A program made the translations under genes and the position numbers. A stretch of DNA of 16,386 bases from Anaerohalosphaeraceae bacterium. Its GTDB lineage: Bacteria > Planctomycetota > Phycisphaerae > Sedimentisphaerales > Anaerohalosphaeraceae. Shown piece after piece: positions 2,721-16,386 of the stretch. The stretch covers positions 1 to 16,386 of the forward strand of contig DAOVIC010000015.1 in NCBI GenBank assembly GCA_030671565.1, read 5' to 3'. The notes below the pieces were generated by a model. The model made no database searches, was not told where the DNA came from, and was given only the letters and a program-made list of their open reading frames with translations. Every line of letters starts with the position of its first letter. Position 1 is the stretch's first letter.

Positions 2721-3449
2721 TTATTTGAGCTCTTTGATCATGATATTCCTAAAAGAAACGGTATTGCCGTGGTCCTGCAGGAGGATATGACCTTCCGTCC
2801 ATTCACCGAAACCGGGCCACCTTTTGTATTTGCTTTCCTTAATAAGCTGTCGAAACTCGGGCGTTTTACGCTCACACTCGAGCACTTTATCTCCGTTAAG
2901 CCAGTGTTCAACGTGGTTGCCCTTAGAGACAATGCGGGCATGGTTCCACTGACCGATCGGGCTGGGCTTTTTATTTTCGGCTTTGATCAAGTCATAGAGA
3001 GAAGCGACTGTGCGGCTGCCTTCCTGGCTGCCTAGTTTGGCATCTTTATGCCGCTTATCGTCCAATATCTGGTATTCCAGGCCAATAGACGAACCCCGAC
3101 CTTTGTTGAGTCCCGGGTCAACGAAATACTTGATGCCGCTGTTTGCACCTGGCGTCACCTTAAAATCAAGCTTCAATTCGAAATCGCTGTATTTATCGAC
3201 AGTCACAATATCACCGCCAGCGGTAGATTCGCCGCCGCCTGATTCCAGAACCGTCAAAACTCCGTCCTCTATAACCCATCCTGATTTAGGAAAATGATCC
3301 AGCCTGGCACCACGCCAGCCGTTTGTAGTTTTTCCATCCCAGAGCATCTTCCAGCCGTCAGCTTCTTTCGATTTATTATTGGTCGATGTGCAGGAACAGA
3401 GCAGTGAGGTTAACAGTAATGTAAGTAAGAATTTGAGTTTCAGTTGCAT
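2721..3449 (-). CDS. DUF1080 lipoprotein, putative 3-keto-glycoside hydrolase/lyase
   Basis: The protein has 242 aa. The start is ATG at 3447-3449, preceded by AAGGAAA about 6 nt upstream. The leader ends in a lipobox LLCSC, giving a lipidated Cys20. Residues about 31-241 form a single DUF1080 domain, a concanavalin-like jelly roll, with the typical features [14 protein letters not shown] near the start, [39 protein letters not shown] and ILLQDHG near the end. DUF1080 proteins studied so far act on 3-keto sugars made by Gfo/Idh/MocA dehydrogenases. The gene sits 36 nt upstream of a fusion carrying both of those domains, so the two probably act together outside the cytoplasm (inference). The substrate cannot be read from the sequence. 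Confidence 0.82.
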
Positions 3450-3570: not shown

Positions 3571-4935
3571 TCATTTTGAGCCAATTTCTTGCCCGAAGAT
3601 ATTTTCATTCCATGTCTGAATCGATTCTTCAACTTCCTGAGTCTTTAGCTGATTGGTCTTGGCTGGCAGCCAAAGCGAGAGCTTGGGCATATACGTTATC
3701 GCCATCAGGGCTATGACCATCGCACCAAAGAACGGCAGCATTGTTTTTGTGACTTTTGCTATTGTCGTTTTTCCTACGCCGCAGCCTATAAAAAGACACG
3801 TCCCTACAGGTGGTGTGCAAAGGCCTATGCAAAGGTTGGCGATCATCATGATGCCGAAGTGGACCTCGTGCATTCCGAGCGACTTTACAACGGGCAAGAA
3901 AATAGGCGTAAAGATAAGAACCGCCGGGGTCATATCCATGAACGTTCCGACAAACAAAAGCAGCAGATTAATCGTTAGTAGAATCACTATCGGGTTGTCT
4001 GAGAGATTTAATAATACACCGCTTACCGACTGCGGGATATTTGCCATGGTCATGATCCAACTCATTCCGGAACTGGCACCTATCAGCAGCATCACAATTG
4101 CTGTCGTTATGCCTGTCTGTCTGAATATCTCCGGCAACTGGCGCATACCGATCTGGCGGTAAACTATCACGGAAAGTATGAATGAATACAATACGGCAAT
4201 GGCGGCCGCTTCTGTTGGAGTGAAAATTCCCTTCAATATTCCGCCGATGACGATGACTATCAGCATCAGGCTTAGGAGCGCCCTTTTGAATGAAACCAGT
4301 GTCTCAAAGAATGGTACGCGCTGCTCGCATCCGTATTTGTTGCGGAATGCGAAGTATCCGCATACGGCCATTATACATAAACCCATAACTATGCCGGGAA
4401 AGACGCCTGCCATGAACATCGCGGAAATCGAAACACTGCCGGCAGCGACGGAATAAACGATCATTACATTACTGGGCGGGATAAGCAACCCTGTCGTTGC
4501 CGCCGTTGTGGTGACTGCGACGTTGAACTCGACGCCGTAGCCCTTGCGGTTCATCTCCGGGATCATGAATCCTCCTACCGATGAGACGGCTGCACCAGCG
4601 GAACCGGAAATTGACCCGAACAACATGCAGGTGAGAGTGTTTACATACGCAAGTCCGCCGGGAAGCATGCCCACAAGAGCATTTGCAAAATCTATGAGAC
4701 GTCTTGCCATGCCACCTCGACCCATCAGATGGCCCGAGAGAATGAAAAACGGTATCGCAAGCAAAGCAAAACTGTTTACTCCGTTTGCCATTTTCAGCGC
4801 CATCATAACCGAAGGATCAATTCCCTCGGCAAGGATCGCAACGAATGCCGCAATCGCTATGGAAACGGCGACGGGTACATTCATGACAAGAAGAAGGACA
4901 AATACAAGTACAAGTATAAGGGCTGTTACAGCCAT
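3571..4935 (-). CDS. dctM: TRAP transporter large membrane subunit (DctM family)
   Basis: The protein has 454 aa and about a dozen hydrophobic segments. It opens with MAVTALILVLVFVLLLVMN and carries the family hallmarks AIPFFILSGHLM (about residues 60-71), SGSAGAAVSSVGG and PPVGTCLFIGCGVG near the C-terminus. DctM is the large permease subunit of tripartite ATP-independent periplasmic transporters, which use ion gradients to import organic acids. Its ATG overlaps the TAA of dctQ by one base (TAATG), which indicates translational coupling. The hydrophilic tail after the last helix (about 30 residues, ending GQEIGSK) is somewhat longer than usual. Next to uxaC the likely cargo is a hexuronate (inference). 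Confidence 0.93.
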   Translation of the reverse strand: MAVTALILVLVFVLLLVMNVPVAVSIAIAAFVAILAEGIDPSVMMALKMANGVNSFALLAIPFFILSGHLMGRGGMARRLIDFANALVGMLPGGLAYVNTLTCMLFGSISGSAGAAVSSVGGFMIPEMNRKGYGVEFNVAVTTTAATTGLLIPPSNVMIVYSVAAGSVSISAMFMAGVFPGIVMGLCIMAVCGYFAFRNKYGCEQRVPFFETLVSFKRALLSLMLIVIVIGGILKGIFTPTEAAAIAVLYSFILSVIVYRQIGMRQLPEIFRQTGITTAIVMLLIGASSGMSWIMTMANIPQSVSGVLLNLSDNPIVILLTINLLLLFVGTFMDMTPAVLIFTPIFLPVVKSLGMHEVHFGIMMIANLCIGLCTPPVGTCLFIGCGVGKTTIAKVTKTMLPFFGAMVIALMAITYMPKLSLWLPAKTNQLKTQEVEESIQTWNENIFGQEIGSK

Positions 4936-5441
4936 TAGTTTAGTCCTCCCTGCTTATCGGTGAGGATCAGTTCGATAATCCGCTCTACCGTGAATATTAT
5001 CATAAAAACTCCGGCTATTGGTAAAGCAAGATAGACATAGCCCTGCCCAATTCCCAGTGCCGGGGTGAGTTGCTCCATTCGTAGAGTGTCAATGACTACC
5101 GCTGACCCACCGATGACAAAAATGCTTGTCGCGAAAAATAGAACGACCAGTTGTGCGAAGATCGCCAGCAATTTCTGCGTGGATGTATCAAACAGGCCTA
5201 CAAAATAATCGACACCAAGGTGAGCCTTTTCGCCGAAAGCGACTGCTCCGCCCAAAAGAGATATCCAGATCAGGAGAAAACGGGCAAGTTCTTCGGTCCA
5301 GTCGGCTTGCGCTCCCATGGCATAGCGGGTAAAAACGCCCCAGAGTACGTCAAGGACGAGAACAAACACTGCTGCGATGAGTACCGCCTCTAGGACACGA
5401 CAAAGGGCTACACGGCTTTTTTTGATCATATCAACTATCAT
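4935..5441 (-). CDS. dctQ: TRAP transporter small membrane subunit (DctQ family)
   Basis: The protein has 168 aa, four predicted helices and the usual family length. The motif WTEELARFLLIWISLLGGAVAF (about residues 48-69) is the DctQ signature. DctQ pairs with DctM in the membrane part of a TRAP transporter. The gene overlaps dctP by four bases (ATGA at 5438-5441). Its Shine-Dalgarno, GGAGG, lies inside the end of dctP about 8 nt before the start. It is also coupled to dctM downstream, so the three transporter genes form a tight translational unit. Confidence 0.93.
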   Translation of the reverse strand: MIVDMIKKSRVALCRVLEAVLIAAVFVLVLDVLWGVFTRYAMGAQADWTEELARFLLIWISLLGGAVAFGEKAHLGVDYFVGLFDTSTQKLLAIFAQLVVLFFATSIFVIGGSAVVIDTLRMEQLTPALGIGQGYVYLALPIAGVFMIIFTVERIIELILTDKQGGLN

Positions 5442-6448
5442 GGTTTAACCTCCCGAATTCTTGTTACAAGATCCTTGATCTTATCATTTTCGATCGCGTC
5501 GTACATCGGCTTTACTTTTTCTGCAAAGAGACTTTGATCGACTTCATATATAGACACTCCGTCTGCTTTTGCCTCCTCGAGCGATTGTATGGTTTTTTCT
5601 TTCCATAGTTTTCGCTGGAAGATTGAAGATTCGTCGGCTGCTTGTTGAAGCCATTGCTGGACCTGCGGGTCGAGCTGGGACCATGTTTTTGTGGAGATCA
5701 AAAGAACGTCTGGGATTCTTGTGTGGCCGTCCTTTGAGAAATGCCTGCAAATTTCGAAATGCTTGTTAGTAGTAAAGCTTGGCGGGTTGTTTTCTGCTCC
5801 ATCTACGGTTCCCTGGGCAAGGGCAGTGTAAAGCTCGCCCCATGCTATGGGGGTCGGTGCCGCACCTAGAGCACTTACCATGTCCATGGCGGTTCGGCTG
5901 TTCATTACGCGGATCTTCAGGCCTTTGAGATCATCGGGAGTTAGTATCGGGCGGTCTTTTGTGTAGAAATTTCGGCTTCCGGAATCGTAGTAGCACAGGC
6001 CTCGCAGGTTTTTGGTTTGTGTCTTTTCAAGCAGTTCTTTGCCCAAAGGGCTGCTAAGGACATCCCAGTAATGCGTTTCGTCACGGAAAAGGTAGGGAAG
6101 GCCAAAGACTGACATCTCGGGCAGGAAGTTTTCGATAGACGCTGTAGAAGTTTTTGTCATGGCGAGCAAGCCGTACTGCAGCTGTTCGATAGTCTGAACC
6201 TCAGAGCCTAAAACGCTGCTGGGATATATGTCTATCCTGACGGTTGCGTCTGATAACTCGAGCAAACGGTCATTCATGAACTCCATCGCTTTGTGTACCG
6301 GGTGCGATGGGTCCAGACTGTGGCCGAGTTTGAGTACGATCTGGTCGGCGCTGTCGGCGGGGGCTCGAAGAAAGACCGCATATCCACATGTCGCGACCAA
6401 AGCACCGATAAGCATCATGCTTATTAGAAACGAAACTTGCCTTTTCAT
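5438..6448 (-). CDS. dctP: TRAP transporter solute-binding protein (DctP family), probable hexuronate binder
   Basis: The protein has 336 aa. A hydrophobic N-terminal segment (residues 5-26) directs export. The mature part starts near residue 34 with the family pattern VLKLGHSLDPSHPVHKAM. Residues 175-181 (KGLKIRV) carry the arginine R180 that in DctP proteins binds the carboxylate of the ligand. The conserved block AAPTPIAWGELYTAL plus GTVDGAEN follows at about 196-220. The gene lies 11 nt after uxaC, so glucuronate or galacturonate is the likely ligand. That comes from context and is not read from binding-site residues. The lipobox-like LVATC at 17-21 has a poor -1 residue, so I do not call it a lipoprotein. 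Confidence 0.92.
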   Translation of the reverse strand: MKRQVSFLISMMLIGALVATCGYAVFLRAPADSADQIVLKLGHSLDPSHPVHKAMEFMNDRLLELSDATVRIDIYPSSVLGSEVQTIEQLQYGLLAMTKTSTASIENFLPEMSVFGLPYLFRDETHYWDVLSSPLGKELLEKTQTKNLRGLCYYDSGSRNFYTKDRPILTPDDLKGLKIRVMNSRTAMDMVSALGAAPTPIAWGELYTALAQGTVDGAENNPPSFTTNKHFEICRHFSKDGHTRIPDVLLISTKTWSQLDPQVQQWLQQAADESSIFQRKLWKEKTIQSLEEAKADGVSIYEVDQSLFAEKVKPMYDAIENDKIKDLVTRIREVKP

Positions 6449-6459
6449 AATTTATTCCA

Positions 6460-7875
6460 TTATTCATTAATAGACATTGTAAAATAATTTCTGGCGTTAT
6501 TATATGATATATCCTCTACCATCTTACCTAGGAGCTTGATGTCATTTGGCCAGTAGCCTGCTTCTACCTCTTCGCCTAGCAGGTTGCACAATATGCGGCG
6601 GAAGTACTCGTGGCGGGCGTAGGAAAGGAAACTTCTGGAATCGGTCAGCATGCCGATGAAACGGCTTAGCAAACCAAGATTCGACACAGCGTTCATCTGC
6701 TTTATCATACCGTCCATCTGATCAAGGAACCACCAGCCGGAACCAAATTGCAATTTGCCAGGGACATCGGCTTGAAAATTCCCCAACATCGTGGCAAGCA
6801 CCTCGTTGTCCTTAGGGTTTATATTGTACAGTATCGTTTTCGCTAACATATTCTGAGCGTCAAGCCTGTCAAGGAATTTTGCCAGCGGTAATGCGATGTC
6901 AAAATCGCCTATCGAATCAAAGCCCGTATCGGCTCCGAGCGTGTTAAACATACGCGTATTATTATTGCGGATGACACCCATGTGCAGTTGCTGAACCCAG
7001 CCCTTTTTATGATTCATCATGCCGAATTCTATCATCATAGCGGACTTGAATTTTTCAATCTCATCCGGCGAAAGCGGTGCCCTGGTACGTATCTTCTGGA
7101 ATATCGCTTCGATCTGGCTTTCGGTGTACTCAGCTGCGTAAGGTCTGTCCAGTCCGTGGTCGCTTAACCGGCAGCCGTTTTCGTGGAAATATCCCTGGCG
7201 TTTTTCAATCGCCTCGATGTATGTTTCAAAACTGTTGATCTCAATATCAGTAAGCTCGGCGAGTTTGTCGATCCAATCATTTTGGGCGTCAAGATTTTCC
7301 GGAGCCATCGCCTTATCCGGTCGCCATGCGGTATGGATCGCAACTTCGAAACCATCAGCAGCAATCGCCTTATGGTGCTCAAGACTATCGAGCGGGTCCT
7401 CTGTGGTGCATACGAGCTTTACGTCCCATGTTCGCATAATGTTACGCGGAGTGAACTGCGGGGTGCTTAACATTTCACCGCAGCAATCGTATATCGCATC
7501 GGCGGTGTCTGGACCGAGAAGCTTATCGGTAATTCCAAATGGTTTTTTAAGCTCTAAATGCGTCCAGTGATATAGCGGATTACGAATGCAGGCAGCAGCA
7601 GTCTGTGCCCACATCTCAAATTTCTGGCGATCTGTCGCGTCTCCAGTGATGTATTTTTCTTCTACGCCGTTTGTTCGCATCGCCCGCCACTTGTAATGGT
7701 CGCCGTAAAGCCATATCTGCGTTAAATTCTCAAACTGTTTATCGACTGCGATCTGAGCGGGCTGCAAATGGCAGTGGTAATCATATATCGGCATCTTCGC
7801 CGCATAATCATGGTAGAGAGTCTTCGCTGTTTTATTTTGCAACAAAAACTCTTCATTTATATACTCAACAGTCAT
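6460..7875 (-). CDS. uxaC: Uronate (glucuronate/galacturonate) isomerase
   Basis: UxaC converts D-glucuronate to D-fructuronate, and D-galacturonate to D-tagaturonate, in the cytoplasm. The protein has 471 aa, close to the 470 of E. coli UxaC. It shows the amidohydrolase HxH (H34, H36 in YDYHCHLQP), the family block WRAMRTNGVEEKYITGDA, GSGWWFLDQMDGM and the C-terminal MLTDSRSFLSYARHEYFRRIL. The start chosen is ATG at 7873-7875 because GGAG lies 6 nt upstream. A longer reading from TTG at 7887 would place that Shine-Dalgarno inside the gene. It is the first catabolic step for sugar imported by the adjacent TRAP system. Confidence 0.96.
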   Translation of the reverse strand: MTVEYINEEFLLQNKTAKTLYHDYAAKMPIYDYHCHLQPAQIAVDKQFENLTQIWLYGDHYKWRAMRTNGVEEKYITGDATDRQKFEMWAQTAAACIRNPLYHWTHLELKKPFGITDKLLGPDTADAIYDCCGEMLSTPQFTPRNIMRTWDVKLVCTTEDPLDSLEHHKAIAADGFEVAIHTAWRPDKAMAPENLDAQNDWIDKLAELTDIEINSFETYIEAIEKRQGYFHENGCRLSDHGLDRPYAAEYTESQIEAIFQKIRTRAPLSPDEIEKFKSAMMIEFGMMNHKKGWVQQLHMGVIRNNNTRMFNTLGADTGFDSIGDFDIALPLAKFLDRLDAQNMLAKTILYNINPKDNEVLATMLGNFQADVPGKLQFGSGWWFLDQMDGMIKQMNAVSNLGLLSRFIGMLTDSRSFLSYARHEYFRRILCNLLGEEVEAGYWPNDIKLLGKMVEDISYNNARNYFTMSINE

Positions 7876-7915
7876 TGCCAGCTCCAATAAAAAACATAAA
7901 AAATAACACTATCCA

Positions 7916-9367
7916 CTAGACTATATATGTCGAAGCTGCTGTGTTGCCACCTCGGCCGGTCCAGTTTGTGTGGAAGAATTCGCCGCGAGCTTTATCTACT
8001 CTCTCGTAGGTATGTGCACCGAAGTAGTCTCTCTGGGCCTGTAAAAGATTTGCTGGGAGTCTTTCGCTTCTATAGCCGTCATAGAATGCCAAAGCCGAGC
8101 TTATCGCAGGCATTGGAATTCCAAGGTTAACCGAAGCAACAATAACCCTTCGCCACGCTGCCTGCGATGTCTCTACAGCGTTCTTAAAGAATGGATCAAG
8201 CAGAAGGTTTTCCAAGTCTGGATTACTATCGAACGCTTCTTTGATCTTGCCGAGGAAGACGCTTCTAATAATACAGCCGCCGCGCCACATCAAAGCGATG
8301 CCGCCATTGTTCAGGTTCCATTTGTATTCTTTCGCAGCTGCACGCATGAGCTGATAACCCTGTGCATAGCTAACTATCTTCGATGCATAAAGCGCCTCCA
8401 TGAGGTCTGCAACGAGTGCGGCCTTGTCTCCGTCAAACGATGCATCAGGTCCCGAGAGCACCTTAGAAGCTTTTACACGTTCATCTTTTAGAGCCGACAA
8501 GCATCTTGCGAATACTGCCTCGCCAATAAGAGTAAGCGGCATCCCCACATCCAGAGCAGCAACCGCTGTCCATTTACCGGTTCCCTTTTGACCGGCTGTA
8601 TCGAGGATATGATCGACGACTTCATTGCCGTCTTCATCTTTGTATCCAAGAATGTCACGTGTGATCTCGATAAGATATGAATCAAGAATACCATCGTTCC
8701 AATCTGTAAAGATCTTATGCATTTCTTCATTAGACAAGCCAAGCCCTTTGCTCATCATCTGGTACGTTTCGCAGATCATCTGCATATCACCGTATTCAAT
8801 GCCGTTGTGGACCATCTTAACGAAATGGCCCGCACCGTTTTCCCCTACCCAGTCGCAGCATGGCTGACCGTCATCGGTCTGTGCGCAACATTTCTGGAAG
8901 ATAAGTTTAACATGCTCCCACGCAGCCGGCGAACCACCGGGCATGATCGAAGGACCGAGCAAAGCACCTTCTTCACCGCCTGATACGCCAGTGCCGATGT
9001 AGAGCTTGCCTTTGCTTTCGACGTATTCGCATCTGCGGATAGTGTCTGGGAAATGTGAGTTACCGCCATCTATGATTATATCGCCATCTTCGAGCAATGG
9101 CAGGACCTGGTCGATGAAAGCGTCAACAGCTCCGCCTGCCTTAACCAGCAGCATTACCTTGCGAGGACGTTCGAGAGAATTGACAAACTCTTCGATAGAG
9201 TGACAACCGATGATGTTTTTGCCCTTTGCACGAGCGCCCATGAAGTCATCGACCTTCGAGACTGTACGGTTAAAGCATGCGACTGTAAACCCCTTGCTTT
9301 CCATGTTCAAAATGAAATTTTCACCCATTACGGCAAGGCCTACAAGGCCTATATCTGCTTTCGACAT
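7916..9367 (-). CDS. gnd: 6-phosphogluconate dehydrogenase, decarboxylating
   Basis: Gnd oxidises and decarboxylates 6-phosphogluconate to ribulose-5-phosphate with NADP+. The protein has 483 aa, the full length for the long (homodimeric) type. The nucleotide-binding site GLVGLAVMG is at residues 7-15 and the NADP-type NRT at 33-35. The substrate block GVSGGEEGA is at 127-135. The catalytic lysine is K184 in HFVKMVHNG, and H187 and N188 follow it. Near the end are WRGGCIIRS and DYFGAHTYER. All key residues appear intact. A pentose-phosphate enzyme is unusual inside a hexuronate cluster, where KDPG aldolase would be expected. It lies between the kinase and uxaC with short gaps (about 40-50 nt), so it is probably co-transcribed with them. 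Confidence 0.96.
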   Translation of the reverse strand: MSKADIGLVGLAVMGENFILNMESKGFTVACFNRTVSKVDDFMGARAKGKNIIGCHSIEEFVNSLERPRKVMLLVKAGGAVDAFIDQVLPLLEDGDIIIDGGNSHFPDTIRRCEYVESKGKLYIGTGVSGGEEGALLGPSIMPGGSPAAWEHVKLIFQKCCAQTDDGQPCCDWVGENGAGHFVKMVHNGIEYGDMQMICETYQMMSKGLGLSNEEMHKIFTDWNDGILDSYLIEITRDILGYKDEDGNEVVDHILDTAGQKGTGKWTAVAALDVGMPLTLIGEAVFARCLSALKDERVKASKVLSGPDASFDGDKAALVADLMEALYASKIVSYAQGYQLMRAAAKEYKWNLNNGGIALMWRGGCIIRSVFLGKIKEAFDSNPDLENLLLDPFFKNAVETSQAAWRRVIVASVNLGIPMPAISSALAFYDGYRSERLPANLLQAQRDYFGAHTYERVDKARGEFFHTNWTGRGGNTAASTYIV

Positions 9368-9417
9368 TTTTTGTGCCCCATATGTTTAAATGTTATTTTC
9401 GTATTACAGTCTTATTA

Positions 9418-10488
9418 TTAACGTTGGACTCTCGCGTTGCCTTCCCAAATACTCCAGAGTTGATCTTCGTCGGCAGGTTGAGCGTAATCGGTTAGCATCG
9501 TTGCCGCGAGTGCTCCGCTTGCCCATCCAAACCTGGCACATTTTTTCACATCCCAGCCCTTGAGTATTCCGTAAAGCAGACCGCCGACAAATCCGTCACC
9601 GCCGCCAATACGGTCAAGAACGCCGATCTCACGAGGCTTGATGACTTCCCACTCCTTGCCGTCAGTAACCAGTGCGCCCCACATATGGTTGTTTGCTGAC
9701 ACAACATCACGAAGTGTCGTTGCAAAGTAGCTGGCATTGGGGTAGGCAGCCTGAACTTTACCTATCATCACTTTAAAACTATCGATCTTCTGATCGAGAT
9801 CCTGACCGCCGGAATCAGGGCCTTCTATCCCAAGGCACAACTGGAAGTCTTCTTCGTTACCGATCAGGATATCACTGCGAGAAGCGATTTCGGCAAACGC
9901 CTCAGAAAGCTCTTTCTCTCTGCCCGTCCAGAAGCTGGCCCTATAGTTAAGGTCAAATGATACCAACGAGTCATTTTCTTTTGCAACGCGTGCGACGTCA
10001 AGACAAAATTTACTGGTCTTAGGCGAAAGTGCCGCAATAAGCCCTGAAAGGTGTACTATCTTAGCTCCTTCCTGAGCAAATATCCTATCAAGATCAAAGT
10101 CATCGGCGCTAAGCTCGCGGCCAACTTCACCTGCTCTGTCGTTTTGAACCCTCGGTCCGCGCGAGCCCCAACCGCTGCAAGCCATATTGATCTGATGGCG
10201 ATACCCCCATGGATCTTCCTGTTCAAACTCAGGCCCCTCAAAGTCCATCCGACGGCTTTTAAGGTTGTCCTTAATGAAATGAGAGACAGGGCTGCCCTTA
10301 ACAAATGCTGTCAATACTTTGACCGGCATGCCGAGATATGAAGCCACGCTTGCGACATTACTCTCAGCACTGGTTGCCTGCATTTTGAAAGTATCGCTGC
10401 AATGGAACGGCTGAGAATCAACAGGAGTCAATCGAACCCCCATACTGGTCGGAACAATCAATGAATATTTTTTTTCTGTTTCAGACAT
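9418..10488 (-). CDS. PfkB-family sugar-acid kinase (2-keto-3-deoxygluconate or gluconate kinase candidate)
   Basis: The protein has 356 aa. The start is ATG at 10486-10488 with GGAG 7 nt upstream; a TTG 15 bases earlier would overlap that site. The PfkB signature DRIGGGDGFVGG is at 292-303, with catalytic base D298. DLNYRASFW at 179-187 resembles the DxNxR..LW segment of 2-keto-3-deoxygluconate (KDG) kinases. The N-terminal substrate lobe is atypical: SAESNVASVASYLG (40-53) replaces the usual GGxxxNvA. The protein is also longer than typical KDG kinases (about 310-340 aa). Family membership is firm but the substrate is not. The usual annotation would be KDG kinase. In this cluster, with no mannonate dehydratase or KDPG aldolase but with gnd, phosphorylation of gluconate at O6 is a reasonable alternative (inference). 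Confidence 0.85.
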   Translation of the reverse strand: MSETEKKYSLIVPTSMGVRLTPVDSQPFHCSDTFKMQATSAESNVASVASYLGMPVKVLTAFVKGSPVSHFIKDNLKSRRMDFEGPEFEQEDPWGYRHQINMACSGWGSRGPRVQNDRAGEVGRELSADDFDLDRIFAQEGAKIVHLSGLIAALSPKTSKFCLDVARVAKENDSLVSFDLNYRASFWTGREKELSEAFAEIASRSDILIGNEEDFQLCLGIEGPDSGGQDLDQKIDSFKVMIGKVQAAYPNASYFATTLRDVVSANNHMWGALVTDGKEWEVIKPREIGVLDRIGGGDGFVGGLLYGILKGWDVKKCARFGWASGALAATMLTDYAQPADEDQLWSIWEGNARVQR

Positions 10489-10533
10489 TATTATACTCCA
10501 CAAATAAAATTACAGGAATCCACAAGCTAATAG

Positions 10534-11799
10534 CTAACAAAATCCCTCTCGACAGGACCAGAGGCCCATGCCGGGATTTGATATATAATATATTTCTTCA
10601 CCGACGACAGTATTGTATCCGTCGCTCAGTTTTTCCGGATCGTATAACTTCATCATCTCGTTTAGATCAGCATATTGAAAGTTCACCGACTCGATATCTT
10701 CTTTGCTGATATTGCCCGGACAATATGTTATGCTAAATCGACCTTCCGATGACCCATGGATCAGGTGAGCGGCAGCACTGAGGTTATCTCTTACTTCGTC
10801 TTTACTCTTTACCAGTTCCAGCACTTTGTCCGTGCCTATGTAACCGTATTTTCGTATTAGCTTGTCAATCTCGGCATCTTCGCCAAATTCCATCAGGCCG
10901 GGGGCAAGCACGATCAGTTCTCCGCCATCGGCCATTGCCATTCTGGTTCGGTAGATACTTTTGTTGCCGAGCCATGTGCTTTTGTACTCGTGCGGGTCGA
11001 GATAGACGACCGCTTTTTGCAGTGGTTTATCGAGTATCTGAAAATTCACCTCAAGTGAAAGTTTTGCGGCAAGTTCGTAACATTCAAAGCCATCGCCGAT
11101 GAATAGGCCCTTGACGACCTGCCTGCCTTGCTCGGCTGCTACTACGGTTAGAATGTATAATATTGGCAGATGATTTGAGAAATTCTCAGATGCATAGTTC
11201 AGGACTTTTCGAACTGGCGAGTCTGCCCGGCCCATTATGTTTTCCATCCCGTATGCCGCACCCAAAAAATGACTTTTGTTAATGGCTTCTGCGCCTCCTG
11301 TACCTACGAAGATGTTTTTATTGTGGTTTGCCATTCCGATCACTTCGTGAGGGACTACCTGTCCAAACGAAAGCATCAAATCAAAATCGCCCTCTACAAG
11401 AAGTTTATCAACCTGCACGGGCCAATCATAATCGACCTTTCCACCGCTTATATCGCTAACGAATTCGCCGGGTACTGTCCCCAAAGTAACCAGTCCGTCA
11501 CGCCAGTTGTGCTCTCTAAAGAGCGATTGCGGTATTTTGCCGAACATCGTCTTGATCTGCTCGGCCGTCATCGCCGTATGTGTACCAAGTGCGGGCAGTA
11601 CGTCTGTCATACTGTCGCCGTAATACTCCCATGCAGTTTCGGTTAGTTCGCCGGCACGAGAATGAAAGCGTGTAAAGTCCGGCGGAATCGCGAGGACTTT
11701 TCGCTTTTCGCCAAGTTTATCAAGAGCCTGGCGCAAACCATCCTTCATATCCTGTGCCGACAGATCATCATTTTTATCGCCGCGTTTATAGTATAGCAT
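10534..11799 (-). CDS. LarA-family nickel-pincer-dependent racemase/epimerase homologue, candidate hexonate 2-epimerase
   Basis: The protein has 421 aa and starts at ATG 11797-11799. LarA enzymes interconvert the configuration at C2 of 2-hydroxy acids using a nickel-pincer nucleotide bound to a lysine. Here DFTR (41-44) matches the LarA D72/R75 region and LGTHTAM contains H74, the likely match of H108. H151, K161 and H177 reproduce exactly the H174-K184-H200 spacing (10 and 26 residues) of Lactobacillus plantarum LarA. The active site is therefore likely functional, with K161 holding the cofactor. LarA homologues studied elsewhere include lactate, malate and phenyllactate racemases and a D-gluconate 2-epimerase. 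Among fructuronate reductase, a kinase and gnd, a mannonate/gluconate 2-epimerase is the natural guess (inference). LarB, LarC and LarE, which make the cofactor, are not in the window. The Shine-Dalgarno is weak. Confidence 0.85.
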   Translation of the reverse strand: MLYYKRGDKNDDLSAQDMKDGLRQALDKLGEKRKVLAIPPDFTRFHSRAGELTETAWEYYGDSMTDVLPALGTHTAMTAEQIKTMFGKIPQSLFREHNWRDGLVTLGTVPGEFVSDISGGKVDYDWPVQVDKLLVEGDFDLMLSFGQVVPHEVIGMANHNKNIFVGTGGAEAINKSHFLGAAYGMENIMGRADSPVRKVLNYASENFSNHLPILYILTVVAAEQGRQVVKGLFIGDGFECYELAAKLSLEVNFQILDKPLQKAVVYLDPHEYKSTWLGNKSIYRTRMAMADGGELIVLAPGLMEFGEDAEIDKLIRKYGYIGTDKVLELVKSKDEVRDNLSAAAHLIHGSSEGRFSITYCPGNISKEDIESVNFQYADLNEMMKLYDPEKLSDGYNTVVGEEIYYISNPGMGLWSCREGFC

Positions 11800-11829
11800 A
11801 ATATATAACCAATCCGGGTTTTCTCCCTG

Positions 11830-11916
11830 TTACTTGCTCAAAGCGGAATAAACTTGTTTGGCAATAACTAAGTGGCCTGTCAGATTCGGATGAACAGGCT
11901 CGGGGCAGAAAGTTAT
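11830..11916 (-). pseudogene. Remnant of an SGNH/GDSL hydrolase C-terminus
   Basis: The 193-nt gap between the LarA-like gene and the fructuronate reductase is long for this series. In its minus strand a frame of 28 codons, bounded upstream by a stop (917-919 of the 11,000s), reads FCPEPVHPNLTGHLVIAKQV and ends ...YSALSK before TAA at 11830-11832. This matches block V of SGNH hydrolases (DxxHPNxxGHxxIA), which carries the catalytic Asp/His pair; the Asp is Glu here. It has no start codon and no other part of the gene. I read it as the tail of a deleted hydrolase that once sat in the operon. The match is short and was judged by eye. Confidence 0.55.
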
Positions 11917-11992
11917 TTATTATATATTTTTTCTTTGAAGGTTCGTTAGTTATCACCAAATCGTCTGATTATTTCTAACCTTAATCGCTATG

Positions 11993-12811
11993 TTAAATTC
12001 CTCCGAATGCTGATACTCCGCCGTCTACGGGTACTACTACTCCTGTAACAAACTTCGCCGCATCGCTTAGAAGCCAAAGCATTGTACCGGTCAGTTCTTC
12101 TGGTTTACCGTAACGATCCATCGGAGTATGGTCAATTATAAGCTTGCCGCGAGGCGTTGGTTCGCCGGTTTTTTCGTCCGTCAAAAGAAAACGATTCTGC
12201 TCTGTCAGGAAAAAACCCGGAGCGATCGCGTTTACACGAATTTCTTTAGAATAATTCTGACACATGTGCACGGCAAGCCACTGCGTAAAGTTGCTTATAG
12301 CAGACTTAGCAGCCGAATACGCTGCGATCTTTGTCAAAGGCTTAAACGCATTCATACTGGAAATATTAAGTATTACGCCTTTGCCGGTCTCTGTCATGTC
12401 TTTAGCAAACACCTGCGTTGGAAGCAGGGCACCGATAAAATTAAGATCAAACACAAACCGAATAGCATCTGCAGGCATATCAAAGAATGACATATCCGGA
12501 CCGGTCGTCGCTTCCTTTTTGTTTCCGCCGGCACCGTTGATTAGGATATCGATCTTGCCGAGTTTGTCGTTTACAATTGCCTTTGCATCTTCCAGACTTT
12601 GCTTGTCGAGGACATTGCATTTAACCGCTATCGCCTCACCGCCACCGGCGACGATATCTTCAGCAACCTTTTGTGCGGCCTGTTCATTGAGGTCAAGGAC
12701 AGCGACCTTTGCACCAGCCTTGGCACAATCCCTGGCCATCTGTCCGCAGAGAACCCCGCCTGCACCTGTGATCACTATACATTTATTTTTGATATCAAAA
12801 AGTTCATTCAT
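11993..12811 (-). CDS. uxuB: Fructuronate reductase / D-mannonate oxidoreductase, short-chain dehydrogenase type
   Basis: The enzyme reduces D-fructuronate to D-mannonate. The protein has 272 aa. The start is ATG at 12809-12811 with GGAG 8 nt upstream; an upstream in-frame extension to 12844 would swallow that site. The cofactor loop TGAGGVLCG (15-23), NGAGGN (92-97), Ser152, Tyr165 and Lys169 (YSAAK) form the SDR machinery. D40 at the end of the second strand favours NAD(H). The blocks FDLNFIGALLPTQVFAKDM and ISSMNAFKPLTKIAAYSAAK closely resemble the SDR-type UxuB/YjmF of Bacillus hexuronate loci. It is the first gene after the divergent promoter, consistent with an operon that handles uronates. 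The product, mannonate, would normally go to UxuA, which is absent here. Confidence 0.9.
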   Translation of the reverse strand: MNELFDIKNKCIVITGAGGVLCGQMARDCAKAGAKVAVLDLNEQAAQKVAEDIVAGGGEAIAVKCNVLDKQSLEDAKAIVNDKLGKIDILINGAGGNKKEATTGPDMSFFDMPADAIRFVFDLNFIGALLPTQVFAKDMTETGKGVILNISSMNAFKPLTKIAAYSAAKSAISNFTQWLAVHMCQNYSKEIRVNAIAPGFFLTEQNRFLLTDEKTGEPTPRGKLIIDHTPMDRYGKPEELTGTMLWLLSDAAKFVTGVVVPVDGGVSAFGGI

Positions 12812-12855
12812 TTTAAGAACTCCGAGCAAAAAATAATATCCCATGCACTGAGATT

Positions 12856-12885
12856 ATTGTATATGCCATAGGCTTGACATTGCAA
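12856..12885 (-). promoter_or_regulatory. Candidate sigma-70 promoter for the uronate operon
   Basis: On the minus strand TTGCAA (12880-12885) and TACAAT (12856-12861) are separated by 18 nt and point toward uxuB, whose ATG is 45 nt downstream. Both hexamers differ from consensus by one or two bases. No good alternative appears in the gap. The -35 box lies inside a palindrome at 12868-12891, so a bound regulator would block it. Confidence 0.5.
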
Positions 12886-12951: not shown

Positions 12952-13021
12952 TTAATGTGATTTGTACTTAATTAGGCATTTTAAGCAAAAGCGCAATTAT
13001 ACCACAAGGCATGAGATTATC

Positions 13022-14230
13022 ATGAGAAACGGCCCTATTGACTCAAAAAACGCAGGCCAGAGGAACGAAAACCTCATCCTTTCTATGCTCTTTGAGCACA
13101 AAAAGCTCTCTCAGGCCCAGCTTTGCAACCTCGCTGGGATCGGCAGTTCCACAGCCAGCACGATCGTAGCAAGACTTCGCGACAAAGGACTCATCACGGA
13201 AACGCCTGGCCATAGCGCAACCCGCGGCCCAAAACCGATCGTACTTGAGCTTAATTCGGACTGCAGATACACCGTAGGCGTTGAGATCAACCCCAGCCAT
13301 CTTTTCGTAGGACTGTTTAACTTAAAGGGCCAAATGAAAGATAAGATCCGCATCTCGCTGGGATCCGATCACTCACTGGAAAATGTTCTGGATTTGCTCA
13401 GCGTTAATGTGCCAGGTCTGCTCAATCGCAACAAGATCGAAAACACAAAAGTGATCGGTGTCGGCATCACACTCAGCGGATCGGTCTCGCCCGACGGATG
13501 CGTCTCCCTGTCCAGCCCCTTAGGGTGGAAAAATGTTCACCTCAAAGAACATCTCCAGCCGTTCTTTGAATTTCCAGTCTCGGTATACAGCAACCGCGTC
13601 AGGCTGCTTTCGGAATTTGCGATCAGCGCCGATCTCGCTTCGAAAAACATACTGTATCTAAATCTTGCCGATGGCGTAGGCTCAACCGTTTATATGGATG
13701 GTAAGCTCATATCAGGGGCTAACGGCAGATACGGTGAGATCGGCCACATAGTCGTAGAACCTGACGGCCCCCTTTGCGGCTGCGGTCAAAAGGGATGCCT
13801 GGAAGCATTGATCTCTGGGCCGGCTCTAATTAATAAGATTCGCAACGAATCCGACGGCATATCCGCTCCCTGCTTTGCCGGGAAAGATAACTGTAATATT
13901 CCAGAAGAGTTTTTAATGCAATGGTCCAGGGCTGCTGACGATGGGGATAAATATGCTCTTTCGCTGCGAGATTATGTAGCCGCCCATTTCTCAAGAGCTG
14001 CCTGCATGCTAATAAATTGTTATGATCCGGAAGTGATTGTTCTCGCAGGATATGTCTGCCTGCACTTTCACGAATATTTTGCCGAATGCATCCGCGAAAC
14101 GATGCAAACAAATGTTTACGAAAATTCCCTGCGAAATATTCAGATAATGCCCGCCCGCGCCGGAGAAGACGCCCTGATCACAGGAGTAAGCATAGCCGCA
14201 CGCCAAAGACTCCTAGGCTGGCCGGTATAA
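13022..14230 (+). CDS. ROK-family transcriptional regulator of the uronate cluster
   Basis: The protein has 402 aa. A winged helix-turn-helix occupies about residues 15-78 (LSQAQLCNLAGIGSSTASTI, then a wing with RGPKP). The ROK sugar-binding domain follows. Its signature GRYGEIGHIVVEPDGPLCGC lies at 235-254, with zinc ligands H242, C252, C254 and C259. The position that holds the catalytic Asp of ROK kinases (NDxN) reads SNRV at 190-193, so the protein is a regulator and not a kinase. I chose the ATG at 13022; the upstream TTG at 12962 lies too close to the -10 box. The Shine-Dalgarno is weak (GAG 7 nt upstream). It is divergent from uxuB across a 210-nt control region and probably senses a uronate or hexonate intermediate (inference). 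Confidence 0.9.
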   Translation: MRNGPIDSKNAGQRNENLILSMLFEHKKLSQAQLCNLAGIGSSTASTIVARLRDKGLITETPGHSATRGPKPIVLELNSDCRYTVGVEINPSHLFVGLFNLKGQMKDKIRISLGSDHSLENVLDLLSVNVPGLLNRNKIENTKVIGVGITLSGSVSPDGCVSLSSPLGWKNVHLKEHLQPFFEFPVSVYSNRVRLLSEFAISADLASKNILYLNLADGVGSTVYMDGKLISGANGRYGEIGHIVVEPDGPLCGCGQKGCLEALISGPALINKIRNESDGISAPCFAGKDNCNIPEEFLMQWSRAADDGDKYALSLRDYVAAHFSRAACMLINCYDPEVIVLAGYVCLHFHEYFAECIRETMQTNVYENSLRNIQIMPARAGEDALITGVSIAARQRLLGWPV

Positions 14231-14430: not shown

Positions 14431-15795
14431 TTACAGTCGCGAGTATCGGGCTGTCGATCCGAAGGTTGAGGGTTCGAGTCCCTTCGGGGGCGTGTTGGGT
14501 TTAGCTTCAGTGGAAATTGTAATATTTGGTTTCCCTGGTTTTGGTCGATCTTTTCTGTTTGCGAACAGCCATGTTGTGTACTTAATATTTCCCCACACTT
14601 TTGCGGCGGTTGCTACGTGGTTTGTTTTTGGGAACTCTATGTACAGGCTGTCTCCTGAGGCTTTGGCAATCTCTTCGTAAACGGCTTTGCTTCCGAATCG
14701 CATGGGGTCCTGGTCGCCTGCGAATATTCTTGTCGGTACGTGTTTGTATTGTTTTACCTGCTGTTTTAGTTCGGTAAGGTATTGGCCCGACGGTGTCGAG
14801 CCTACAGGACCTATTGGCCAGCCGGCTACGGGGATGGCAGCTGCGAACAGGTCGTGGTCGGCTTTTAAGAATTCCCAGCATGCTTTGCCGCCGTATGAAA
14901 AACCTGTCAGGTATACCCGGTTGTTGTCGATGTTTATGTTTTTATCGTCGATCAAGGTTTGTACCAGTTTGAGGGTTGCGTGTGTGTACCATCCGTTTTC
15001 GTTTACGGCGGGCCAGTCAGGATGGTATGGGGTCGGGGCGCCCATTTTTCCTTTTGGGAAGTATGGGGCCGGGACAGTTTCCATCGGCGGTATCTGTGTT
15101 ACAAGGCTGAAGCATTCGAATTCTCGTTTGTGGTAGTAATTTGTAAAGAGGTATCTGGCGAAAATGACCTGTTCCATGCTTCGTTTGTTGTCGGTGCCTA
15201 TGCCGCCTGAGCCTGATACGCTTATGACGAGGGGGTATTTTTTTGCGGGGTCGTAGTTGCGGGGGAACATGAAGCGGTAGGGCAAGTCATTGTTTGCGAA
15301 TGTGAATGTTTCGGGTGTGTGGCCGTAGAGTGCTTCTTTGGTCCGGGAGTATTGGTAGCGGATGGCTTTTATGCGGACATTTTGTTCGGGCTGGAGTATC
15401 AGCCATGCGTATCGCTGGCCCTTGTAGCGAGATACTGCTTCGATCGAGGCGCCCGATTTAAGGGTTTTTAGACGTGTGTGCAGGTGTGATTTTGCGATGA
15501 CATTCTGTAAGTCGGGCGTATCTGAATAGCCTATGCTCATTTTTATTTGGCCGGGGCCGGCAAAATCTGCTGTGATCTTGTGAAAGTTTATTTCGCAGCC
15601 TTCTGGTGAAACTATTGCCGGGGAGATCAGGCAGGGCGTCGAGTCTACCGTGGCAGGAGTCCATTTTGCCATGTCGGCGTGGGAGTATTTTTTCGTGATC
15701 CGGTCGATCTGGGGCCGGGCGGGGGTGGAGTATGCGGCGGCTGGGTGGAGTGTCCAGAGCAGTGTGATCAGGTATAATGTAAACAGCTTTTTCAT
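14431..15795 (-). CDS. Exported alpha/beta hydrolase (esterase / prolyl-oligopeptidase-like), C-terminus read from a tRNA fragment
   Basis: The protein has 454 aa. A Sec signal peptide (MKKLFTLYLITLLWTLHPAAA) covers residues 1-21. Residues about 60-150 have few landmarks and may form a beta domain. The hydrolase core starts near 172 (LPYRFMFPRNYDPAKKYPLV) and has the nucleophile elbow GFSYGG with Ser300, an acid in GDQDP (D361 or D363) and His393 in KTNHV. The fold resembles LpqC/PHB-depolymerase-like esterases; the substrate is unknown. The last residues, from about 436 (PPKGLEPSTFGSTARYS), are the antisense reading of the tRNA-Asp fragment at 14445-14492. The native C-terminus was probably replaced or extended when that boundary formed. 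The domain ends near 413, so activity is likely kept. It has its own promoter and is not part of the uronate operon. Confidence 0.8.
   Translation of the reverse strand: MKKLFTLYLITLLWTLHPAAAYSTPARPQIDRITKKYSHADMAKWTPATVDSTPCLISPAIVSPEGCEINFHKITADFAGPGQIKMSIGYSDTPDLQNVIAKSHLHTRLKTLKSGASIEAVSRYKGQRYAWLILQPEQNVRIKAIRYQYSRTKEALYGHTPETFTFANNDLPYRFMFPRNYDPAKKYPLVISVSGSGGIGTDNKRSMEQVIFARYLFTNYYHKREFECFSLVTQIPPMETVPAPYFPKGKMGAPTPYHPDWPAVNENGWYTHATLKLVQTLIDDKNINIDNNRVYLTGFSYGGKACWEFLKADHDLFAAAIPVAGWPIGPVGSTPSGQYLTELKQQVKQYKHVPTRIFAGDQDPMRFGSKAVYEEIAKASGDSLYIEFPKTNHVATAAKVWGNIKYTTWLFANRKDRPKPGKPNITISTEAKPNTPPKGLEPSTFGSTARYSRL
14445..14492 (+). pseudogene. 3' half of tRNA-Asp(GTC), probable attachment-site remnant
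   Basis: The segment folds as the 3' half of a tRNA. The anticodon stem is TCGGG/TCCGA (14446-14450, 14458-14462) around loop CTGTCGA with anticodon GTC. Next come variable bases AGGTT, T-stem GAGGG/CCCTT around TTCGAGT (14473-14479), and the acceptor 3' strand CGGGGGC (14485-14491) with discriminator G. CCA is not encoded. Upstream of 14445 there is no D-arm and no matching GCCCCCG acceptor strand, so the 5' half is missing. A half that begins at the anticodon stem is what site-specific integration into a tRNA leaves at one end of an element. By orientation, the element would lie to the left and native chromosome to the right. Confidence 0.75.
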
Positions 15796-15871: not shown

Positions 15872-15952
15872 GTGTCAGGTTGGTTGTGGCAAGATATTCG
15901 GTTGTTTGTTATAATCTTTCGCTATGGAAACGAAGATCATTACAATCGATAA
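15872..15952 (+). CDS. Possible 26-codon leader ORF overlapping the start of tsaC
   Basis: A full AAGGAGG (15856-15862) stands 9 nt before a GTG at 15872. The frame reads VSGWLWQDIRLFVIIFRYGN and ends at 15952, overlapping the tsaC start in another frame. No promoter clearly places the transcript start upstream of this site. The only good -10 box lies inside the ORF, so translation is doubtful. Confidence 0.2.
   Translation: MSGWLWQDIRLFVIIFRYGNEDHYNR
15910..15915 (+). promoter_or_regulatory. -10 box immediately upstream of tsaC
   Basis: A perfect TATAAT ends only 8 nt before the tsaC ATG at 15924. A start about 7 nt downstream would give an essentially leaderless mRNA. No Shine-Dalgarno lies in those 8 bases, which fits. 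The -35 region is poor (TTGTGG at 20 nt spacing). Confidence 0.4.
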
Positions 15953-16386
15953 TGCGGAAAGGGATGCTTCGGCGATAAAGAGTGCCGCTGAGGTTCTTGA
16001 TGGGGGCGGGCTGGTTGCATTTCCTACTGAGACGGTTTACGGGATAGGTTGTAAGGCCGACAGTGAGGCTATCGAGCGGCTTGATGCGGTTAAGAACCGG
16101 CCTGGGGATAAGCGGTACACTTTGCATATCGGCGATAAGAGTCAGTTGGGGGATTATGTGCCGGTTGTGCCATTTAGGGCACAGAAGCTGATGTCTAAGG
16201 TTTGGCCGGGGCCTTTGACGCTTGTTTTTCAGCTGGATGAGGAAAGTTTGAAGTTGCAGAGGGAGAAGTTGGGGGACGATTGTTTTGAGACCCTTTATCG
16301 TGACGGTTCTATCGGGGTTCGGTGTCCTGATGAGCCGATCGCCCGGGCGTTGCTTTCGGCGGCGAAATCGGCGATCGTTGCTCCCA
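15924..16386 (+). CDS. tsaC: L-threonylcarbamoyladenylate synthase (Sua5/YrdC/TsaC), 3' end outside window
   Basis: The frame starts at ATG 15924 and is open to the right edge (154 codons). The opening METKIITIDNAERDASAIKS leads to LDGGGLVAFPTETVYGIGCK at about residues 25-44, the strongest hallmark of the YrdC fold. KNRPGDKR matches the KxRP..K motif that binds ATP/threonine, then WPGPLTLVF and SIGVRCPDEPIARALL. The enzyme makes threonylcarbamoyl-AMP from threonine, bicarbonate and ATP for the t6A37 modification of ANN-decoding tRNAs. It is a housekeeping gene, consistent with native chromosome to the right of the tRNA scar. The part seen shows no defect. Confidence 0.92.
   Translation, partial: METKIITIDNAERDASAIKSAAEVLDGGGLVAFPTETVYGIGCKADSEAIERLDAVKNRPGDKRYTLHIGDKSQLGDYVPVVPFRAQKLMSKVWPGPLTLVFQLDEESLKLQREKLGDDCFETLYRDGSIGVRCPDEPIARALLSAAKSAIVAP

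Follow-up and report, generated by a model that had tools for sequence, protein, structure and literature searches.

We analysed a stretch of 16,386 nucleotides (here called the window; contig DAOVIC010000015.1 of an Anaerohalosphaeraceae bacterium, assembly GCA_030671565.1) and propose that it carries a ROK-controlled glucuronate operon following the GntE route of Thermotoga, with another group of LarA homologue and another family of kinase; we give this reading a probability of about 0.7. In the proposed model, a TRAP transporter would import glucuronate, UxaC would convert it to fructuronate, and an SDR family protein would reduce fructuronate to D-mannonate. The LarA homologue, of LarA group 18 (LarA18), would then invert C2 of D-mannonate by LarA-type proton-coupled hydride transfer, yielding D-gluconate, which a PfkB family kinase would convert to 6-phosphogluconate before decarboxylation to ribulose-5-phosphate by Gnd. 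The model draws on the gene identities, on co-localization of the genes across several phyla, and on conserved catalytic residues; in addition, the kinase differs from the PfkB protein linked to Eda, and one gene order has a GntE-like LarA where LarA18 would stand. From these we infer every substrate and direction, the order of epimerase and kinase, and the use of nickel-pincer nucleotide (NPN).

Open reading frame (ORF) calling and scans with NCBIfam and Pfam models found ten consecutive minus-strand genes and one divergent regulator in the window. The catabolic set, from SDR to DctM (3571-12811, minus strand), lies behind the divergent ROK regulator, and the order of transcription is SDR, LarA homologue, PfkB kinase, Gnd, UxaC, DctP/DctQ/DctM, a DUF1080 protein, and a Gfo/Idh-DUF1080-CBM fusion, with intergenic gaps of at most 50 bases or overlapping genes from LarA through DctM. 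The window thus holds the full GntE-route set together (UxaC, mannonate oxidoreductase, LarA-type epimerase, kinase, and Gnd), and neither UxuA nor Eda is among its scanned proteins. An initial annotation of this DNA had already named the transporter, UxaC, SDR, LarA homologue, PfkB kinase, and Gnd, the missing UxuA and Eda, and a regulator bounding the operon on one side, all of which our scans recovered. The SDR start that it had placed at 12811 is likewise the likeliest, an internal ATG in an open frame extending to 12844. Its interval (5438 to 12811) covers the core genes and omits DctQ and DctM.

LarA group 18 and its gene neighborhoods

An alignment of 19 LarA sequences was used to scan genome contigs for LarA18 loci, and the best 80 of 566 matching stretches were kept, many of them on short contigs; 45 of the 80 have at least 4 kb on both sides (well-flanked loci). 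These best 80 come from Planctomycetota, Bacteroidota, Ignavibacteriota, Calditrichota, Spirochaetota, Acidobacteriota, Verrucomicrobiota, and Lentisphaerota. Within 10 kb of LarA18, Gnd is found in 62 of the 80 loci, SDR in 58, PfkB (at least 60% identity) in 43, and UxaC in 26; within 5 kb in the 45 well-flanked loci, the counts are 39, 37, 26, and 14, respectively. SDR, PfkB, and Gnd are all present in 25 of these 45 loci and all missing in 5. In the well-flanked loci, these three neighbors share the strand of LarA, and UxaC lies on the other strand in 2 of 14. Because the SDR/LarA/Gnd set recurs in relatives, the gene set of the window is not due to chance.

The closest syntenic relative, locus L006 of genome G005, repeats the window operon (identity of 84% for ROK, 69% for SDR, 71% for LarA, 89% for PfkB, 94% for Gnd, and 86% for UxaC). 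The window SDR and LarA are closer to those of L001 (76% each), a PFK/HAD-type locus, than to those of L006; exchange of SDR and LarA together, as one cassette, is a possibility. The order PFK-SDR-HAD-LarA18-Gnd of L001 equals that of L138, PFK-SDR-HAD-(GntE-like LarA)-Gnd, in which the GntE-like LarA matches structure 4nar over its full length (223 bits). By our own reading, 4nar is the GntE of Thermotoga maritima, and it is 26% identical to the window LarA in a fold alignment.

The LarA homologue of the window has the LarA fold and a Lar_N domain, and scores over the curated cut-off of NF052594 (NPN_18_hexonate, "nickel-dependent putative hexonate epimerase"). The name indicates group 18 in the numbering of Desguin et al. 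(2020), of which the window protein is, by score, a member. As the assay sections of that paper describe, 13 LarA homologues were assayed, none of group 18, for which a hexonate substrate was hypothesized only, and GntE1 and GntE2 convert D-mannonate to D-gluconate (PMC7583248); the initial annotation, too, cited a LarA homologue with gluconate 2-epimerase activity. The nine enzymes tabulated in PMC11770544 bear numbers other than 18 in that table.

Seven catalytic or NPN-related residues named in PMC7583248 (D72, R75, H108, H174, K184, H200, and K298, LarA numbering) are invariant in 81 of 81 LarA18 and 12 of 12 GntE-like proteins, the match of columns to LarA numbers being our own reading of the alignment and least sure for K298. 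LarA18 also has the E-V loop residues in common with the 12 GntE-like proteins, a sharing described for groups 18 to 20 (PMC7583248). The loop bearing K184 is altered, SGGxK..PG being replaced by AN[YH]NKN..[VI]G in nearly all LarA18 proteins, and the AlphaFold model is weak (predicted local distance difference test score of <50) exactly at 156-180, the cofactor loop. On context and residues, the window LarA18 is a putative gluconate 2-epimerase and a putative NPN enzyme.

The PfkB kinase and the rival routes

For the window PfkB, a library scan returned no NCBIfam model over cut-off. Models for 2-dehydro-3-deoxygluconate (KDG) kinase scored 103.6 bits for a cut-off of 440 (NF041332), 49.8 for 400 (NF040938), and 27.5 for 400 (NF052444), and the KHG/KDPG aldolase-kinase fusion model NF041633 scored 165.9 for 700. 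Five Bacteroidota loci (L025, L033, L042, L057, and L072; four from Marinilabiliaceae), which also contain UxaC, hold two PfkB proteins each, one of 30 to 34% identity beside Eda and one of 69 to 71% beside SDR, LarA18, and Gnd; since they coexist, the two kinases are distinct. The window kinase and 39 full-length relatives (at least 60% identity and at least 320 residues) follow the consensus RHQ.N.ADSG.G.RGPRV.NDRAGE.G, each letter being present in >95%, and the window protein deviates at a single residue (C for D). We drew a second, uncurated motif, GIYFLE.GA..R.SKV.YDRA.S, from the Eda-linked paralogues and from 2afb, a KDG kinase of T. maritima. It is common to 2afb and 10 of the 14 distant PfkB proteins of the loci, and the window kinase is without it; the remaining 4 are of other types, 3 of them adjoining LarA or Gnd. 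Motif and context, on which we judge gluconate versus KDG as substrate, argue for something other than a standard KDG kinase. In the open-licence PMC literature searched, we recognized no PfkB gluconate kinase in this setting.

To follow the distribution of the kinase, the class to which G005 belongs was represented by 198 genomes (requested completeness of at least 90%). They comprise 38 genomes with LarA18 (34 over the NF052594 cut-off and 4 below, namely G161 at 493 bits and G241, G211, and G208 as pieces), 37 with a GntE-like LarA (best match of 118 to 196 bits; 12 of the 37 were retrieved and 2 compared with 4nar), and 123 with neither (including G131 at 93 bits and weaker matches). The kinase (E value up to 1e-60) occurs in 29 of the 198, of which 21 have LarA18 and 8 a GntE-like LarA, and in 0 of the 123 with neither; this co-occurrence has a hypergeometric probability of 1e-14, relatedness being ignored. 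The kinase lies near LarA18 in 11 of these 29 genomes. Among 246 sampled Bacteroidia genomes, LarA18 was found in 1, the central genome of the sample.

Several findings weigh against our reading. In 18 of the 29 kinase genomes, no LarA is seen in the 9 to 15 kb around the kinase. In one of them, G081, the kinase adjoins SDR and Gnd; it stands apart in G015, G016, G018, and G091, for three of which the LarA18 operon (L049, L054, and L060) is without it. These three operons are among six SDR-LarA-Gnd-UxaC loci with no nearby kinase (with L003, L008, and L012), and a PFK family protein is found in five LarA18 loci (L001, L020, L031, L056, and L077). Eda is present in G005 too, and UxuA lies inside the LarA18 locus in 7 of the 80 loci. 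We recognized no assay of a group 18 enzyme in the open-licence PMC literature searched. Finally, in a sample of 50 LarA18 genomes (19 planctomycete and 31 others), no larB, larC, or larE scored over cut-off in 18 of the 31 nonplanctomycete genomes, and larC is missing in 15 of the 19 planctomycetes.

The separation of kinase and LarA would suit a reading in which the PfkB protein is a common KDG kinase and uronates follow the Ashwell route, with Eda and UxuA (or a different mannonate dehydratase) encoded elsewhere, and in which LarA and Gnd handle gluconate from other sources. The nearest solved relative of the kinase is indeed the KDG kinase 2afb (117 bits), source annotations call its relatives 2-dehydro-3-deoxygluconokinase, and Eda occurs in 40 of the 50 genomes, including 14 of the 19 planctomycetes. 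This reading has to account for a separate Eda-linked PfkB with a different pocket-region motif in the five loci described above and for a hexonate-type LarA in all 29 kinase genomes. Moreover, UxuA scored over cut-off in 0 of the 19 planctomycete LarA18 genomes, G005 included, enolase-type mannonate dehydratases not being searched for. We consider this alternative very unlikely.

The UxuA search, which detected T. maritima uxuA as a positive control, found the gene in 17 of the 31 other LarA18 genomes and in only 2 of the 198 genomes of the class. Given the latter count, the absence of UxuA shows a lineage nearly free of UxuA-type dehydratase; it does not show a replacement by LarA and supports no claim of anticorrelation. 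Where UxuA shares the locus, mannonate would be a branch point, and the LarA branch supplements the classic route without being a strict substitute for it. The initial annotation had the Ashwell/Entner-Doudoroff route replaced, which does not hold where UxuA is common and can share the locus.

Racemases and epimerases of the LarA kind are reversible, and the loci with UxuA could in part of the family serve a branch running backward, from gluconate to mannonate and on to KDG via UxuA, for gluconate use without a gluconate dehydratase. Gnd, useless in that direction, is the most constant neighbor of LarA18, and UxuA is missing in the lineage of the window, which makes a backward branch highly improbable.

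The same gene set would also serve a route with the kinase acting first, in which PfkB would be a mannonate kinase and LarA18 would epimerize 6-phosphomannonate to 6-phosphogluconate, as in Lactobacillus suebicus, where both activities were shown in cell extracts (PMC6978723). Consistent with this order, the kinase gene precedes LarA in many Bacteroidota loci; LarA comes first in the window and several planctomycete loci, gene order being weak evidence. For GntE1, GntE2, and LarAH15, the substrate is D-mannonate without a phosphate group (PMC7583248, PMC11770544), and the E-V loop of the GntE-like proteins, as well as their gene order in one case, recurs with LarA18. Phosphorylation before epimerization is thus unlikely. 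The proposed order, from mannonate to gluconate and then 6-phosphogluconate, fits most of the comparative evidence, and the interpretation of the initial annotation is partly supported.

Supply of the nickel-pincer cofactor

The search for larB, larC, and larE proposed in the initial annotation recovered all three in G005. The absence of matches over cut-off for all three genes in most nonplanctomycete LarA18 genomes and of larC in most planctomycetes leaves the NPN supply unexplained. Two of the genomes negative for all three, Maribellus sp. YY47 and Draconibacterium aestuarii, are labeled as other than metagenome-assembled genomes (MAGs). LarB and LarE over cut-off with no LarC match at all are seen in planctomycete LarA18 genomes G003, G004, G007, G009, G012, G013, and G015-G018.

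LarA18 may be independent of NPN, or may obtain NPN or an equivalent from other genes, still catalyzing hexonate 2-epimerization, a possibility that we regard as doubtful. It would agree with the patchy presence of larB, which is over cut-off in 41 of the 80 LarA18 genomes and whose distribution on the LarA18 tree takes 17 changes, with 8 forced by supported branches (counting as positive one more genome, which scored 174 of 175 bits). It would also agree with larC, no commoner in class genomes with LarA18 (15 of 38) than in those with no hexonate-type LarA (57 of 123) and found in 31 of 37 with a GntE-like LarA, and with the altered K184 loop. On the other side stand the seven invariant residues and the larBCE genes of the closest syntenic relative of the window. 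Draft genomes and MAGs can miss genes, and sub-cut-off matches exist for LarE in 50 of 50 genomes and for LarB in 47 of 50, which we presume to be other ATP-pyrophosphatases and PurE. We recognized no report of larA without larBCE in the open-licence PMC literature searched.

As a tentative and rather unlikely extension, group 18 LarA could be a hexonate 2-epimerase freed from the known NPN pathway, its cofactor-holding lysine and histidines being kept. It would then work with a different cofactor, such as a pyridinium nucleotide that is free of nickel or made in another way, or Bacteroidota would have a further route of NPN synthesis or salvage; in Planctomycetota, a nickel insertase would replace larC alone.

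We set aside the idea that a PdxB-like dehydrogenase or a Gfo/Idh protein replaces LarA where larBCE is missing: loci that have both are found whether or not larB is present, which leaves no clear link. A PdxB-like 2-hydroxyacid dehydrogenase is present in 24 of the 80 loci (that of L080 scores 433 bits for an NF001309 cut-off of 434) and a Gfo/Idh protein in 20; they sit between LarA and Gnd in L018, L020, L024, L026, L034, L037, L056, L071, and others.

Regulation, neighboring genes, and precedents

TABLE 1 Genes and candidate operators of the window (positions are those of the window)
Feature	Position	Strand	Evidence
Gfo/Idh/MocA oxidoreductase fused to DUF1080 and CBM35-like domain	240-2684	-	PF01408, PF06439, PF16990
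Secreted-looking DUF1080 (3-keto-disaccharide hydrolase family) protein	2721-3449	-	PF06439, 171 bits
TRAP large permease DctM	3571-4935	-	TIGR00786, 442 bits (cut-off 268)
TRAP small permease DctQ	4935-5441	-	Placed between DctP and DctM; weak NF007374, 50 bits (under cut-off 260)
TRAP solute-binding protein DctP	5438-6448	-	TIGR00787, 234 bits (cut-off 175)
UxaC, uronate isomerase	6460-7887	-	NF002794, 650 bits (cut-off 387); PF02614, 663 bits
Gnd, decarboxylating NADP-dependent 6-phosphogluconate dehydrogenase	7916-9367	-	TIGR00873, 763 bits (cut-off 427)
PfkB family sugar-acid kinase, proposed gluconate (or mannonate) kinase	9418-10503 (likely ATG start 10488)	-	PF00294
LarA homologue of group 18, proposed D-mannonate/D-gluconate 2-epimerase	10534-11799	-	NF052594, 655 bits (cut-off 500)
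SDR fructuronate reductase/D-mannonate oxidoreductase	11993-12811	-	NF006132 "D-mannonate oxidoreductase," 391 bits (cut-off 281)
Candidate ROK operator 2, TAATCTCAGTGCATGGGATAT on minus strand, in front of SDR start	12836-12856		Second site of pair
ROK family repressor, N-terminal helix-turn-helix, divergent from operon	12962-14230 (likely ATG start 13022)	+	PF00480, 150 bits; MarR_2/HTH
Candidate ROK operator 1, TAATCTCA-N5-TGTGGTAT on minus strand, near ROK gene start	12999-13019		TCTCA-N5-TGnG-like

A divergent ROK gene occurs in 8 of the 80 LarA18 loci. The ROK/SDR intergenic regions of seven loci were compared with that of the window, a site being at least 7 of 10 matches with a spacer of 5. 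Paired TCTCA-N5-TGnG-like sites are found in 7 of these 8 regions, one near each divergent start, L008 being without them. TCTCA is counted 14 times in these regions, for a mean of 2.6 and a maximum of 8 in 1,000 mononucleotide shuffles. What speaks against the motif is that, for most regions, shuffles contain the looser scored pattern about as often; the case for these candidate operators therefore depends on the exact half-site together with its unvarying spacing. Sigma-70-like matches (26 for a shuffle mean of 15.7) and terminator-like matches (13 for 11.3) were set aside and not used. The operon is predicted to be a ROK-controlled uronate catabolic unit with putative operators.

The DUF1080 protein and the Gfo/Idh-DUF1080-CBM35 fusion lie 3' of the TRAP genes in the window, and inside the same operon, between UxaC and DctP, in L006. 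They may act ahead of the pathway, freeing glucuronate from glycosides by way of 3-keto intermediates. In the SDR-LarA-Gnd clusters of L001, L020, L031, L056, L077, L137, and L138, a PFK family protein takes the position expected for the PfkB kinase; most of these PFK-type clusters also hold a HAD-like protein, and the PFK of L138 scores as a diphosphate-fructose-6-phosphate phosphotransferase. At the far end of the window, a minus-strand gene (14431-15795) encodes a protein that looks secreted and weakly matches prolyl-oligopeptidase (21.2 bits, cut-off 22.6), and a divergent frame at the window edge (15924-16385) resembles, by eye, Sua5/YciO/YrdC threonylcarbamoyl-AMP synthase.

The route itself has a precedent in T. 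maritima. The window kinase is a PfkB protein, whereas T. maritima GntK belongs to another family, which we take to be FGGY; the T. maritima regulator UxaR is of the GntR family and that of the window is a ROK protein. For galacturonate use by T. maritima, Rodionova et al. proposed in 2012 a path from mannonate through gluconate and 6-phosphogluconate to pentose phosphates (as described in PMC6978723; operon in PMC3750489), which from fructuronate on is the same as ours. The initial annotation called the pathway new, which cannot be upheld given this proposal and the GntE activity shown in 2020 (PMC7583248). Both systems have UxaC, an SDR family mannonate oxidoreductase (UxaD, PMC5673643), a LarA family 2-epimerase, a kinase, and Gnd, and gnd, uxaD, gntE, and gntK stand in one T. 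maritima operon, aldH-pelB-gnd-uxaRED-gntEK (PMC3750489). T. maritima GntE is of LarA group 20 (PMC7583248), whereas the window protein is of group 18, and uxuA is present in T. maritima as well, in an operon preceded by a UxaR site (PMC3750489). LarA18 belongs to the same superfamily as GntE1, GntE2, and LarAH15, and the GntE-like proteins of the class share its catalytic residues, E-V loop, and neighbors (L137 and L138); it differs in forming a separate family, NF052594, and in its K184 loop.

The L. suebicus route likewise links mannonate to 6-phosphogluconate and Gnd, with the kinase before the epimerase and its genes not identified, and Valk et al. describe this variant as redox neutral (PMC6978723). 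The same would apply here: the initial annotation expected a gain of NADPH, but one NAD(P)H is spent by SDR and one regained by Gnd, so that the route is redox neutral down to ribulose-5-phosphate if the cofactor is the same. With the Ashwell/Entner-Doudoroff route (UxaC-UxuB-UxuA-KdgK-Eda), the proposed route has the first two steps in common; it differs in a lineage where UxuA is nearly absent, a kinase that is not KdgK-like by motif, and an end in Gnd. Within the open-licence PMC literature searched, the variant with a group 18 LarA, a PfkB kinase, ROK control, and a wide spread appears to be new.

Of lasting interest are LarA homologues whose cofactor residues are intact in genomes in which searches did not recover the cofactor genes. 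Our reading assigns a testable function to LarA group 18, "putative" by name, and to a PfkB family that the sources call KDG kinase. It would extend a little-known uronate route of Thermotoga to Planctomycetota, Bacteroidota, Ignavibacteriota, and other phyla.

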